This document shows positions 25,295-30,280 of a stretch of DNA of 64,000 nt, piece by piece (position 1 is the first letter of the stretch; each line of letters opens with the position of its first letter). The stretch comes from Beijerinckiaceae bacterium (lineage in GTDB: Bacteria; Pseudomonadota; Alphaproteobacteria; Rhizobiales; Beijerinckiaceae). The notes under the pieces are model-generated. The model worked only from the letters and a program-made list of their open reading frames with translations, ran no database searches and was not told the origin of the DNA. The stretch is from positions 124,001-188,000 of the forward strand of contig JALJOM010000001.1 of assembly GCA_024304885.1 (NCBI GenBank). Direction: 5' to 3'. Both the position numbers and the translations under genes were made by a program.

Positions 25295-25734
25295 GTGCCG
25301 CGAAGTGCGCTTTACGATCGTGATTTTTTTGCCTGGGCGAACGAGCAGGCGGCCTTGCTGCGCGAGGGCAAGCTCGAGGAGGCCGACCTCGAAAGCATTG
25401 CCGAGGAGATCGAGAGCATGGGCAAGACCGAGAAGCGAGAGCTGATCAGTCGGCTGACGGTCCTCCTTCTGCACCTTTTGAAATGGCGGTATCAGGGGGG
25501 CTGCGTGGCACCAGCTGGCGAAACAGCATCAGAATCCAGCGGCGAGAGATCTCGGCCCATCTTGCTGACAATCCAAGCTTGAGGGCCGTCATCCCGGCCG
25601 CTGTCGAGCAAGCCTATGGAACCGCGGTCATCGCCGCCGAAACCGAAACCGGGCTCGTCGAGGCGACCTTCCCTCGGACTTGCCCGTGGGGCTTCGAGCA
25701 GATGATGGATGCCGATTTCTGGCCGGAACTGTAG
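25295..25734 (+). pseudogene. DUF29 family protein split by a one-base shift in a G-run
   Basis: The first frame (GTG 25295, AAAGGAGGG upstream) gives ALYDRDFFAWANEQAALLRE and continues to LLLHLLKWRYQGG, the standard DUF29 N-terminal half. Then the frame fails and ends at 25582. The expected remainder, LRGTSWRNSIRIQRREISAH through ATFPRTCPWGFEQMMD to the stop at 25734, is intact in another frame. One added G in the run of six Gs at 25495-25500 would restore one 147-residue protein. DUF29 proteins are multi-copy in Alphaproteobacteria and cyanobacteria; function unknown. The break may be real decay, a variable tract or a sequencing error. Confidence 0.82.
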
Positions 25735-25770: not shown

Positions 25771-26412
25771 CTACCAGCGCAGGCAGCGCGACCCGCAGAA
25801 GGCGCCGACAAGCACGACGAGCCCGATCGCGAGCGAATACCAGACCGTGACGAAGAAGGGCGAATCGTCGGTGCAATGCGTTGCATAGAGCGCCGCGCCG
25901 ATCCCTCCGGCAAGCAAGCCCGCGCTCGCGCCAGCGAGCGTCGGATTCTCCGGCGCTCCGTGCCGCAAGGCCAGAAGGGCCGCGACGAGCGGCGCCGCCG
26001 CGAGGAACGGGATGCTGCGCAAGCACACGAGCGCATTGGAGCCGACGAGCCTGCGACCCCAGTCCGCCGCCGGGACCGTGACGAGCTCGGCGAGATCGGC
26101 GGCTGCGAGCAAGACAGGCACGCTCGCCACGACGAGCGCCGCGCGGCGCGGATCGGTGCCGGGGCGGGCGAGCCGCGAGGCGAGGCCGCAGGCTGCTGCC
26201 GCGAGCAGGCCGGCGAGAAAGATCTTGAAGGCGAACCTCGGATCACCCGTCAGCAGCGCGGCGATGTGCGGACGCAGCCCCATGGTCGCGAGGAAAAGCC
26301 CCGCCGCGACGAGAGCGGCCGGAACCAAGGCGCAGCACAGGGCCGTGCTCGGCGGCATGGCCCTCGACTGGTTGTCGGCGACGAGCGCGCGCACGAGGTC
26401 GTCGGTTCTCAT
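25771..26412 (-). CDS. nrsF: NrsF-family anti-sigma factor (DUF1109)
   Basis: 213 residues with six predicted membrane helices and a short cytoplasmic N-terminus (MRTDDLVRALVADNQ) that would bind the sigma factor. Conserved cysteines occur in the C-terminal part (THCTDD and FCGSRCLRW). DUF1109/NrsF proteins in Caulobacter hold SigF inactive at the inner membrane and release it on metal or oxidative stress, probably by cysteine chemistry. The start overlaps the sigma stop (ATGA), so the two are cotranscribed and translationally coupled. Its place opposite the bufferin operon supports a copper-responsive switch (inference). Confidence 0.88.
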   Translation of the reverse strand: MRTDDLVRALVADNQSRAMPPSTALCCALVPAALVAAGLFLATMGLRPHIAALLTGDPRFAFKIFLAGLLAAAACGLASRLARPGTDPRRAALVVASVPVLLAAADLAELVTVPAADWGRRLVGSNALVCLRSIPFLAAAPLVAALLALRHGAPENPTLAGASAGLLAGGIGAALYATHCTDDSPFFVTVWYSLAIGLVVLVGAFCGSRCLRW

Positions 26413-26966
26413 GTGTCGTCCATCCGAAAGCGGGTGGCGAGCCGGGCGAGGCCGCGATGCAGCGCGACCCGCACGGCGCCTCTGCTCATCGTGAGCTTCA
26501 TCGAAGCCTCCTCGATCGAGATGCCATCGACCGCGACGAGCCGCACGACCTTGCGCTGGCCGTCCGGCAAGGCGTCGAGGTGGCGATCGACGTCGGAGAC
26601 GATCAGGCTCGGCGCCTCGGCGCCCGAGGCGAGGACATCGGCCAGGTCGTCGATCGGAACCTCGATCCGACGACCGCGCCGGCGCAGCGCGTCGATCGTC
26701 TTGTGGCGCGCGATGGCGAAGATCCAGGGACCGACGGGTGCGGTCGAGTCCCAGGTCTGACGCTTGAGGTGGATGGCGAGAAGCGTGTCCTGCACCACGT
26801 CCTCCGTATCCGTCTCGGCGAGCCCCGCGCGAGCGAGCCCGCGCCGGGCGAGGGCGCGCAGCACAGGGGTCAGCTGCCGCAGGAGGTCGGCATAGCTCGC
26901 GTCATCTCCCGCGATGGCGGCGCGCATCAACGAGGACCATTCCTGCTCGCGTTCGTTCCCGCGCAC
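26409..26966 (-). CDS. ECF RNA polymerase sigma factor paired with NrsF
   Basis: 185 residues. Region 2 is seen in DTEDVVQDTLLAIHLKRQTW and PWIFAIARHKTIDALRRRGR (DNA-melting and -10 recognition), and region 4 in LPDGQRKVVRLVAVDGISIE with the following helix-turn-helix (EASMKLTMSRGAVRVALHRG). It resembles SigF of Caulobacter, which controls metal and oxidative stress genes with NrsF. The gene lies divergent from bufA, and an element matching the one before bufA precedes it, so it probably activates itself and the bufferin operon. Confidence 0.9.
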   Translation of the reverse strand: MRGNEREQEWSSLMRAAIAGDDASYADLLRQLTPVLRALARRGLARAGLAETDTEDVVQDTLLAIHLKRQTWDSTAPVGPWIFAIARHKTIDALRRRGRRIEVPIDDLADVLASGAEAPSLIVSDVDRHLDALPDGQRKVVRLVAVDGISIEEASMKLTMSRGAVRVALHRGLARLATRFRMDDT

Positions 26967-26984
26967 GAGGGCTCCGTCATCGGG

Positions 26985-27012
26985 TGTTCGGCCGAATAAG
27001 CGGGGGCGTTAC
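26985..27012 (-). promoter_or_regulatory. Candidate sigma-factor autoregulatory promoter
   Basis: Reading on the minus strand, GTAACG (27012-27007) is followed after exactly 16 bases by CGAACA (26990-26985), 19 nt before the sigma-factor ATG at 26966. SigF-type promoters in Caulobacter are reported as about GTAACC-N16-CGAA, recalled from the literature. The match and spacing are seen; promoter function is inferred. Confidence 0.6.
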
Positions 27013-27069
27013 CCGGCGCCGCCGAATTGCATTATCACTATTTCGTCATCCGTTTCCTGCGCCGCCGCC

Positions 27070-27097
27070 GTAACGCCCAGGCGTCCGACCTCGTAGA
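27070..27097 (+). promoter_or_regulatory. Candidate ECF promoter of the bufferin operon
   Basis: GTAACG (27070-27075), 16 bases, then CGTAGA (27092-27097). The -35 hexamer and the spacer length are identical to the divergent element before the sigma gene. The leader to the bufA start codon at 27185 would be about 80 nt. Confidence 0.6.
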
Positions 27098-27184
27098 ACC
27101 AAGGCGTGGGACAGACCCGCCGCGGGCGAGGCCGAAACCGAGAATTTCAGCCCGCGCTCCGTCATCTGCATAGAGGATCAATCC

Positions 27185-27484
27185 ATGACCACCAAGACCG
27201 AGATCACGGCAGCCTCGCTCGCCGGTGCCATTGCCACGGCCCTCGTGCTCGTCGGCACCCCGGCGTCCGCCCAGATGGGCGGCAGCTCGGAAGGCAAGGA
27301 GAAATGCTACGGGGTCGCGCTGAAGGGCCAGAACGATTGCGCCGCCGTGAGTGCCGGCATGTCCTGCGCGGGGACGTCGAAGGTCGATTATCAGAAGGAC
27401 GCATGGAAATATGTCCCGAAGGGCACCTGCGAGACGATCACGACCCCGACGGGCAAGGGGTCGCTGAAGCCCACGAAGTCCTGA
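27185..27484 (+). CDS. bufA1: Bufferin precursor (BufA1-like, DUF2282 RiPP metallophore)
   Basis: 99 residues: signal peptide at about 1-29 ([19 protein letters not shown]), then a mature peptide with four cysteines at 41 (KEKCYG), 52 (QNDCAA), 61 (MSCAGTS) and 82 (KGTCET). This spacing defines the DUF2282/bufferin family. From recent work on Caulobacter, bufferins are exported copper-binding peptides whose central cysteines are turned into thiooxazoles by an MNIO enzyme, protecting cells from copper. It heads a four-gene operon. AGAGGA sits before the start. The modification here is inferred from the partner genes. Confidence 0.87.
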
Positions 27485-27551
27485 AAATTGCCGGGGCGGG
27501 GGCACCGTGCCCCCATCCCGGCGATCGGTTCTCACCTTTCGGGAGCCAGGA

Positions 27552-28433
27552 ATGAAGGATCGCACACCCGGTCTTCCGGAAGGAGTCGGCGTCGGCTTCA
27601 AGCCCGAGCATTTCGCGGCGATCGCCGAGGCGCCGCAGCCCGTCGCCTTCTTCGAGGTCCATGCCGAGAACTACATGGGCGAGGGCGGGCGCCCGCACGC
27701 TCATCTGCGCTTCCTGCGCGAGCGCTACGCCCTCTCCTTTCACGGGGTCGGCCTCTCGATCGGATCCTGCGAGCCTCTCGACCGCGACCACCTCGCGCGG
27801 CTGCGCCGCCTCTGCGAGCGCTACGAGCCGGAAAGCTTCTCCGAGCATCTCGCCTGGTCGTCCCATGGCGGGACCTTCCTCGACGATCTCCTGCCCCTGC
27901 CCTATACCGAGGCGACGCTCGCCGCGGTCGCGCGCCATGTCGACGAAGCGCAGAGCTTCCTCGGTCGCCGCCTGCTGCTCGAGAACCCGGCGACCTATGT
28001 GCGCTTCGCACAGAGCACGATTCCGGAGACGGCGTTTCTCGCCGAGCTGGCGAAGCGGTCAGGCTGCGGGCTCCTTCTCGATATCAACAATGTCTATGTC
28101 TCGGCCCGCAACCACGGGTTCGACGCCGCGACCTATCTCGCCGAGTTTCCGCTTTGCCGCGTCGAGGAGATTCATCTCGCCGGCCATTTCGCGACGCAGG
28201 ACGAGGACGGTGCGATGCTGATCGATGCGCACGGGTCCCCGGTGGTCTCGGACGTCCTCGCGCTCTACGAGCAGGTCATCACGCGCGCGGGGCCGCTGCC
28301 GACCTTGATCGAATGGGACAACGACGTCCCGGAATGGCCCCTGCTGCGAGCCGAGGCCGCGACGGCGCGAGAAAGGCTCGAGCGCGCGAGCCTGGCCAGG
28401 CAGACCCACGCCTGTGGGCGGGCGGCTGCGTGA
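27552..28433 (+). CDS. bufB: MNIO/DUF692 bufferin-modifying oxygenase
   Basis: 293 residues from ATG 27552. TIM-barrel DUF692 protein of the multinuclear non-haem iron oxidative enzyme family (MbnB relatives). Likely metal ligands are in the expected strands: [11 protein letters not shown] (E35, H37), LSFHGVGLS (H64), SEHLAW (E98, H99), LLLENP (E144), [10 protein letters not shown] (D177, N180), EIHLAGH (H208) and LIEWD (E254). It would install heterocycles on BufA cysteines in the cytoplasm before export. It lies 67 nt after bufA and 10 nt before bufC. The family is also found with methanobactin, but the partner here is bufferin-type. Confidence 0.88.
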
Positions 28434-28443
28434 GGCCGTGACG

Positions 28444-29235
28444 ATGCAGGATTTCCAGCGCGCCTTCGCGACGGCGCTCCTCGACCCCGAGCTCTTGCCG
28501 CCGCCCGGCGTCGTCTCGCATTTGTCGACGAGCCCGCGCGGGCGTTTCTCGGTCTATCGCAACAATGTCATGGTCGCGCTCACGGGCGCGCTCGAGGCGC
28601 GGTTTCCGGCGTCGCGCCGCATCGTCGGAGCGGAGTTCTTCGCCGCCATGGCACGGGCCTTCGCGGCGTCGAGCCCGCCACGCTCTCCCGTGATGATGGT
28701 CTACGGCGACGCCTTTCCGGCCTTCATCGAAAGCTTCGAGCCCGCGGCTTCCGTCCCCTATCTCGCCGATGTCGCGCGGCTCGAGGCCGCGCGCACGCGC
28801 GCCTATCATGCCGCCGACGCCGAGCCCCTCGCGCGCGAGCGCCTCGTCGAGGCCCTGCAAGGCGAGGCAGAGACGCTCTGCTTCACCCTCCATCCCTCGA
28901 TCGAGCTCGTGTCGTCGTCGCATCCGATCGTCACGATCTGGGCGATGAACGCAGGCGAGACCGAGGTCGCGCCGATCGAGGATTGGCAAGGCGAGGAGGC
29001 GCTCGTCTCGCGGCCCTGCCTCGACGTCGAGGTCCGGCGCTTGCCTTCCGGCGCCGCGGGCTTTCTCGAAGCGCTGCGCGGCGGCGCGCCGCTCGCCGCC
29101 GCGGTCGCGACAGCCCTAGCCGCGACGCCCGGCTTCGACCTTGCGGAAAATCTCGTGACCTTGCTCGGCGCCCGGCTCGTCGTCGGCGTCACCCGCCGAG
29201 GCAGGCTCGCCTCCCATGAAGGAACTTCGATATGA
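28444..29235 (+). CDS. bufC: BufC-type partner protein (DUF2063 domain)
   Basis: 263 residues from ATG 28444. The N-terminal DUF2063 (putative DNA-binding) domain is recognised by MQDFQRAFATALLDPE, the family's RFSVYRNNVMVALTGALEARFP and PVMMVYGDAFPAFIESFEPA, followed by a C-terminal domain that in related MNIO systems recognises the precursor leader (RRE-like). It probably brings BufA to BufB, as MbnC and HvfC-like proteins do (family knowledge). It overlaps the next gene by 4 nt (ATGA). An upstream GTG at 28414 would overlap bufB and is not preferred. Confidence 0.86.
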   Translation: MQDFQRAFATALLDPELLPPPGVVSHLSTSPRGRFSVYRNNVMVALTGALEARFPASRRIVGAEFFAAMARAFAASSPPRSPVMMVYGDAFPAFIESFEPAASVPYLADVARLEAARTRAYHAADAEPLARERLVEALQGEAETLCFTLHPSIELVSSSHPIVTIWAMNAGETEVAPIEDWQGEEALVSRPCLDVEVRRLPSGAAGFLEALRGGAPLAAAVATALAATPGFDLAENLVTLLGARLVVGVTRRGRLASHEGTSI

Positions 29236-29747
29236 GCGCTTTTCGCGACGCTTCTTTCTTCGCGCTTCTCGACAGGATCCCGCAGTCCGTCCTCTCGCTC
29301 GCGGCGCGCGTGTTTCCGGCTGCGGTGTTCTGGCAGTCGGGCCAGACCAAGGTCGAAGGCTGGCGCGTCGGCGAGACGATCAGCCGGTGCCTCGACAGCG
29401 GCTGCAATCCCTGGAACGAGCTGGTCACGCAGGCGGGCAGCCTGCGTCTCTCGGACAGCGTCGTCGACCTGTTCCGGGACGAATATGCCCTGCCGCTGAT
29501 CGACCCCGAGCTCGCGGCCCGGCTCGCGGCCTTGTCCGAGCATGTCTTTCCGATCCTGCTCGTCTTCGGGCTCGCGAGCCGTTTCGCCGCGTTCGCCCTG
29601 CTCGGCATGACGGCCGTGATCGAATATGTCTATCCGTCGTTGTGGCCGCTCCACGGCACCTGGGCGACCTGCTTTCTCGTCGTCATCGCGCGGGGTCCGG
29701 GCGTCTTCTCGCTGGACTATCTGCTCGGTCGCCTGTGGCGGCGTTGA
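29232..29747 (+). CDS. bufD: DoxX-family membrane protein of bufferin operon
   Basis: 171 residues with four predicted membrane helices (for example VLSLAARVFPAAVFWQSG, HVFPILLVFGLASRFAAFAL and WATCFLVVIARGPGVFSLDY). DoxX-type proteins are the usual fourth gene in bufferin clusters (bufD); their role is unknown, perhaps redox or transport at the inner membrane. Its start overlaps the bufC stop, so it is cotranslated. No clear terminator follows; the operon probably ends here because the next gene has its own upstream region. Confidence 0.83.
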   Translation: MSAFRDASFFALLDRIPQSVLSLAARVFPAAVFWQSGQTKVEGWRVGETISRCLDSGCNPWNELVTQAGSLRLSDSVVDLFRDEYALPLIDPELAARLAALSEHVFPILLVFGLASRFAAFALLGMTAVIEYVYPSLWPLHGTWATCFLVVIARGPGVFSLDYLLGRLWRR

Positions 29748-29959: not shown

Positions 29960-30280
29960 ATGATCAAGCTTCTCGCGTCGCTCGGCGCGTTCTCCGTCGC
30001 TGCCTGCGGCCTCGCGGGCGCCGCTGTCGCGCAATCGCCCTATTCGCCGCCGCTGCAAGCGCCGACCTATCGCTACGAGCTGCCGCCGGCCGCGCTCGCC
30101 GAGCGCAGCGCGCTTCCGTCCGGCCTCGTCTACGAGGGGCGCTCGGTGCACGTCCGTCATCCGGCCGCGAAGAACGCTCAACCCGAGATGCCGGCTTTTC
30201 CCGCCGGCCTGCCTTTGAACCTCGATCCCAGGCCGCGTCCCGCGTCCAGGGGCGCGAGCTTCCAGTCGATGTATGCGTGA
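29960..30280 (+). CDS. Small exported protein of unknown function
   Basis: 106 residues with a signal peptide (MIKLLASLGAFSVAACGLAG, cleavage near AVAQS). The mature part is proline- and alanine-rich (SPYSPPLQAPTYRYELPPAA) with no cysteine and no recognised domain. It begins about 155 nt after the candidate CtrA box. It could be a periplasmic or surface peptide; nothing ties it to the bufferin operon except proximity. Confidence 0.6.
   Translation: MIKLLASLGAFSVAACGLAGAAVAQSPYSPPLQAPTYRYELPPAALAERSALPSGLVYEGRSVHVRHPAAKNAQPEMPAFPAGLPLNLDPRPRPASRGASFQSMYA

Follow-up and report, generated by a model that had tools for sequence, protein, structure and literature searches.

The closest described counterparts of the gene cluster considered here are the SigF-controlled operons of Caulobacter crescentus and the Buf1 bufferin clusters. 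In Caulobacter, sigF-nrsF, two operons encoding DUF2282 and DUF692 proteins, and yedY are reported to share SigF promoters (PMC3511200). This regulon, including msrPQ, was induced by copper in every condition tested there, and a sigF mutant grew poorly in copper (PMC8224329). In Buf1 systems, the modification falls on the central pair of precursor cysteines, the outer two being joined by a disulfide, and genes for a sigma factor and NrsF occur in the clusters (PMC12452194). We analyzed a 64,000-nucleotide stretch of a Beijerinckiaceae bacterium (the window; positions 124001-188000 on contig 1, from a genome of 3.82 Mb), in which nrsF and sigF, on the minus strand, are divergent from bufA, bufB, bufC, and doxX on the plus strand, all in tight order. 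The host belongs to the genus that holds Methylocapsa palsarum; G198, a genome of this genus, carries the operon too, and its BufA and that of M. palsarum are the same (L033, L076, and L111). The locus as a whole is very probably explained as a Buf1-type bufferin system with a SigF/NrsF switch, a copper-binding product, and msrP in its regulon.

All six genes exceeded the Pfam cut-offs well in a profile comparison. The features of the locus are:

25771-26412, minus strand: nrsF, membrane anti-sigma factor (PF06532, 175.7 bits versus a cut-off of 26.8)
26409-26966, minus strand: sigF-type extracytoplasmic function (ECF) sigma factor gene with a GTG start (PF04542 and PF08281 above cut-off; NF009165, 267.5 bits versus 198)
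26987-27012, minus strand: SigF-type promoter of sigF-nrsF, GTAACG-N16-CGAA (motif match)
27070-27095, plus strand: SigF-type promoter of bufABC-doxX, GTAACG-N16-CGTA (motif match)
27185-27484, plus strand: bufA, Buf1/DUF2282 precursor of 99 amino acids (PF10048, 89.7 bits versus 22.4)
27552-28433, plus strand: bufB, bufferin maturase of the multinuclear non-heme iron-dependent oxidase (MNIO) type (PF05114, 355 bits; NF050167 MNIO_BufB, 383.6 bits versus a cut-off of 310)
28444-29235, plus strand: bufC, DUF2063 partner protein (PF09836, 89.7 bits versus 27.2)
29232-29747, plus strand: doxX (PF07681, 55.7 bits versus 23.6)

The sigF and nrsF genes overlap by 4 bases. An identical gene order was found again in related genomes and, given this recurrence and the Pfam scores well above cut-off, we conclude that the locus is not a product of chance. 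In a survey of the genus, sigF-nrsF faces bufA in 13 of 15 genomes, the window included; in the other two (L109 and L164), the contigs end there. A profile search of the whole host genome revealed a single match each for MNIO, DUF2282, and NrsF. The original prediction, made from the window alone, had named a four-cysteine DUF2282 precursor at 27185-27484 with a DUF692 enzyme, a DUF2063 partner, and a DoxX protein, all of which are confirmed by the scores above. It had also placed an ECF sigma factor coupled to NrsF opposite the operon, and this is borne out by the family matches and by conserved SigF-type promoters on both sides. The span it gave, 26409-29747, holds for the operon and sigF, while nrsF falls mostly outside it.

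The gap between sigF and bufA is 218 bases long and contains two back-to-back promoter sites. These are the only matches to the pattern in the window; shuffled sequences contained 0.15 matches on average, and two matches were reached in 1 of 100 shuffles. The SigF-binding sequence of Caulobacter was searched for as GTAACC-N16-CGAA (PMC3511200). In regions from the same family, we defined the motif as GTAAC and CGA/T separated by 16 or 17 bases, and looked for it in 40 regions that were fetched whole and chosen by hand from DUF2282 matches, and are therefore a non-random sample. The motif was present upstream of bufA in 33 of the 40, with a spacing peak at 16-17, and upstream of sigF in 24 of the 28 regions that have a SigF match. 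Within the genus, it precedes sigF at all 13 loci that include this gene, counting the window. On the bufA side, the 14 other spacers between 10 and 25 gave 7 matches in sum, and the mean in shuffles was 0.61. A reverse-strand row also peaked at spacer 17 (18 of 40 bufA stretches and 22 of 28 sigF stretches); it is not a clean negative control, because these stretches overlap the promoter of the divergent partner, and the clean controls are the other spacers and the shuffles. Outside the family, among 26 named loci, the promoter precedes bufA in only 7, and only 6 have a SigF-like match.

A third SigF-type site in the host genome begins ca. 120 bases before the start of msrP (L140/L170; G000:C3, around 2100250), whose product was identified with NF003767 (410 bits versus 207). 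Close msrP orthologues were found in 10 of the 15 genus genomes (57-100% identity, the host's own included), and in 8 of these 10 the motif is present. Before distant msrP homologues it was found in none of the 10 for which loci were available, out of 17 distant matches, the gene starts being only roughly placed. As a difference from Caulobacter, msrQ does not directly follow msrP in the host genome; the first long frame after it is on the opposite strand. A loosened motif matched 58 sites genome-wide, compared to 176 in a backward-read control, and the pattern alone therefore proves nothing at this scale. According to a rough open reading frame rule, 18 of the 58 sites lie in gaps, and among gap sites beyond those of sigF and bufA, the follow-up covered msrP. 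One more SigF-type motif (L145, G000:C3:2505644-2505668) lies between ctaC-like and ctaD-like genes, as named by eye, and may be due to chance. Since the Caulobacter SigF regulon consists of sigF-nrsF, two DUF2282/DUF692 operons, and msrPQ, the predicted regulon matches that of Caulobacter beyond the level of a single operon.

The sigma factor gene stands beside a gene for an NrsF/DUF1109 protein with two conserved cysteines, the arrangement of a SigF/NrsF (ECF16) switch. Residues C130 and C180 are cysteines in 32 of 32 aligned NrsF sequences, while each of the other five cysteines of the window protein is found in at most 4 of the 32. The alignment did not include the Caulobacter and Brucella proteins themselves; by position, the two residues correspond to C131/C181 of Caulobacter NrsF and to C129/C179 of the Brucella protein (PMC8315932). 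Replacement of C131/C181 in Caulobacter raises SigF-dependent expression (PMC3511200). A switch of this kind could respond primarily to oxidants (hypochlorite, peroxide, or thiol stress), with metals acting only by an indirect route, in which case the bufferin and MsrP would form a kit against oxidative damage in the periplasm. The presence of MsrP in the predicted regulon is in line with this, methionine sulfoxide reductase (Msr) genes are said to be common to several ECF16 regulons, and the Brucella ECF16/NrsF pair answers hypochlorite (PMC8315932), which also weighs against the Buf1 explanation as proposed here. We regard an oxidant-first trigger as possible, if unlikely. It shares the parts list of the Buf1 explanation and differs in the trigger, and the confidences attached to the two do not add up to one.

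The precursor BufA has the features of a Buf1 product, a DUF2282 match with four conserved cysteines at positions 41, 52, 61, and 82 (C-x10-C-x8-C-x20-C), the positions originally predicted. It does not qualify as a Buf2 precursor (NF050166 BufA2, 21.9 bits versus 60; four cysteines instead of six). Residues E39, K40, C41, Y42, G43, G48, N50, C52, C61, G80, and C82 are invariant in 21 sequences. At the N-terminus, there is a hydrophobic stretch within residues 9-28, and an ASA-Q signal-peptidase-like site was recognized by eye. In some relatives (L034, L035, L090, L093, L097, L099, L117, and L163), bufA genes occur in tandem before one bufB.

The spacing of the precursor cysteines had been thought to point to a variant product, with an altered metal site in the mature peptide. 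Across all cores counted, the outer gaps are constant at 10 and 20 residues, and the middle one takes values of 6, 7, and 8. The family cores were drawn from 83 DUF2282 matches other than the window and from five further genus genomes; in the 82 distinct ones, the middle gap is 7 in 75 and 6 in 7, and the window, with one residue more between the second and third cysteine than its own family, is alone in having 8. A match to the pattern in L117 (gaps 10/10/0/21) was considered spurious and excluded, and a stricter pattern again gave 75 and 7. The 26 distinct cores that come from named loci of other groups are an uneven sample, since parts of the window BufA served as queries to find these loci; in them, a middle gap of 8 is the commonest class (16 cores, versus 7 with a gap of 7 and 3 with a gap of 6). 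The spacing is odd within the family and common elsewhere, and the search of BufA sequences that had been proposed as a check lends the variant idea no support. We consider a variant product highly improbable.

BufB aligns with the solved MNIO 3bww (E 1.1e-35) and with MbnB chains. Residues H64, H99, E144, D177, N180, H208, and H212 are identical to 3bww within the strong stretch of the alignment; D225, H227, and E254 are shared as well, but fall in another stretch of the alignment, which taken by itself is weak. We take the matched residues to be of the iron-binding kind. With a score above the BufB-specific cut-off, and with a DUF2063 partner and DoxX in the same operon, the gene set is that of a bufferin cluster. 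BufC and DoxX fall under the cut-offs of the NCBIfam models that they match (NF050145 HvfC in the case of BufC), and a sequence search of solved structures, up to E 0.1, gave no match for BufC. Second MNIO genes, 43-44% identical to BufB, were observed in genus members G201, G076, and G040 (L167, L168, and L169), in stretches without a BufA, BufC, or DoxX match; they may belong to another MNIO peptide system. No BufA core was matched at the four loci taken for second MNIO genes (L166-L169).

An insertion of ca. 27 residues, which includes a C-x4-C pair (C53 and C58), is found in the N-terminal half of the window DoxX. The pair is present in 1 of 55 aligned DoxX sequences, and the insertion is absent from the other 54. 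Other, shorter insertions occur at the same place in L101 and L127. The insertion was considered as a mobile or palindromic element and rejected as such: the genome contains a single full-length copy, the remaining matches are short, no repeat of it lies nearby, and the predicted fold is no better than that of shuffled sequences (z -0.43).

By analogy with Caulobacter and with published bufferins, from which the trigger, the chemistry, the export, and the copper binding are carried over, the system may work as follows. In the resting state, the membrane protein NrsF would hold the sigma factor. A metal, most likely copper, or an oxidant would act on C130/C180 and free the sigma factor, which would then direct transcription from three GTAAC-type promoters, the one before its own gene, the one of bufABC-doxX, and the one upstream of msrP at a separate place in the genome. 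The central cysteines of BufA, C52 and C61, would be oxidized to 5-thiooxazoles by BufB together with BufC; BufA would be exported by Sec, and C41 and C82 would form a disulfide. The bufferin would bind copper in the periplasm, where MsrP would repair oxidized methionines. Thiooxazoles, copper binding, and induction by copper would thus be expected in this organism. In Microbulbifer, that organism's own copper peptide cluster, which is built differently, is described as not induced by copper (PMC12538549).

Several observations weigh against this explanation. The exact promoter is missing before bufA in 7 of the 40 family regions and before sigF in 4 of 28. Three of the four sigF-side misses are weak sigma matches (L095, L098, and L100; 34-40% identity); the fourth, L099, has the whole gene set and a 56% identical sigF, yet neither side has a promoter of this form. 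The motif is absent before 2 of the 10 close msrP orthologues (L176 in G202 and L179 in G198, M. palsarum), and 5 of the 15 genus genomes lack a close msrP orthologue altogether. The window NrsF scores far under the cut-off of the NCBIfam equivalog NF042994 (104.5 versus 300 bits); judged by sequence, we place it in the same family as Caulobacter NrsF and do not call it an equivalog. The AlphaFold model of BufA was poor (mean predicted local distance difference test score 56.9) and was not used. In Caulobacter, sigF is described as lacking strong autoregulation under chromium or cadmium (PMC3511200), and a related cluster in Cupriavidus metallidurans is reported to have no effect on copper resistance (PMC8224329).

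The host genome contains pmoA, and the organism is therefore very likely a methane oxidizer, which raises the question of copper supply. The bufferin could keep periplasmic copper available for the particulate methane monooxygenase, as methanobactin does elsewhere. The sole MNIO in the genome is BufB, which fails the MbnB model (52.8 bits versus a cut-off of 325 in a whole-genome profile search), and no methanobactin enzyme of the MbnB family is therefore shown. While an MNIO is present in all 15 genus genomes, pmoA was surveyed in 10 of them (all but G199-G203), and the five pmoA-bearing members have one MNIO each, inside the buf operon. Among 199 family genomes, DUF2282 is found in 15 of 20 with pmoA and in 55 of 179 without it (Fisher p 2.6e-4), but the 20 genomes fall in three genera, the counts are not independent, and the p value overstates the case. 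Those 55 carriers, and the presence of DUF2282 in all five surveyed genus members that lack pmoA, also speak against a supply role, and a stress sigma factor would fit detoxification better. The copper-supply reading stays weak, and we consider it improbable. More doubtful still is a specific form of it, in which, among relatives of Methylocapsa that have the particulate monooxygenase but lack a methanobactin enzyme, the only MNIO peptide system came to serve as a store or carrier of periplasmic copper, protecting the monooxygenase and feeding it, with the DoxX C-x4-C loop as a membrane dock in the window's species. No paper linking bufferins to Methylocapsa or to this monooxygenase was found in a literature search that missed most subscription papers.

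Two neighboring features were observed. A DUF29 gene at 25295-25734 is split, its profile positions 1-62 and 66-138 being matched in two frames that overlap, near a run of six G, either by a natural frameshift or by a sequencing error. Just after doxX, 29960-30280 encodes a small protein (106 residues) that begins, as judged by eye, like a signal peptide and has no Pfam or NCBIfam match.

The bufferin system proposed here can be set against four described ones. Methanobactin (MbnA/MbnB/MbnC) has the MNIO superfamily and a copper-related host in common with it; the window differs by its DUF2063 partner, its DUF2282 precursor, and a BufB outside the MbnB model. Brucella ECF16 likewise pairs an ECF sigma factor with an NrsF-family partner, paired cysteines, and Msr genes in the regulon; it differs in its hypochlorite response and in its targets, which include a methionine-rich protein and Msr, with no DUF692 protein named in the available part of that account (PMC8315932). 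The Buf1 clusters, as far as they are described in the available part of PMC12452194, share the signal-peptide-like N-terminus, four cysteines, MNIO, DUF2063 protein, DoxX, sigma factor, and NrsF, and no difference in kind was found. The fourth is Caulobacter CC3254-CC3257 (DUF2282, DUF692, DUF2063, and DoxX), with the same gene content and order (PMC3511200, PMC8224329), sigF-nrsF beside the operon, the same promoter motif and spacer, two NrsF cysteines at matching positions, and an msrP-type gene in the regulon; there are two bufferin operons in Caulobacter and one in the genome studied here. On these features, the locus is a well-formed Buf1 operon that has a SigF/NrsF switch and whose link to msrP is conserved; the system itself is already known. 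The published copper-stress module, down to its msrP regulon member, is extended to a genus with methane oxidizers, whose key enzyme depends on copper. In such a host, copper probably matters more than usual, and the organism is well suited to asking whether bufferins only detoxify copper or also help to supply it.

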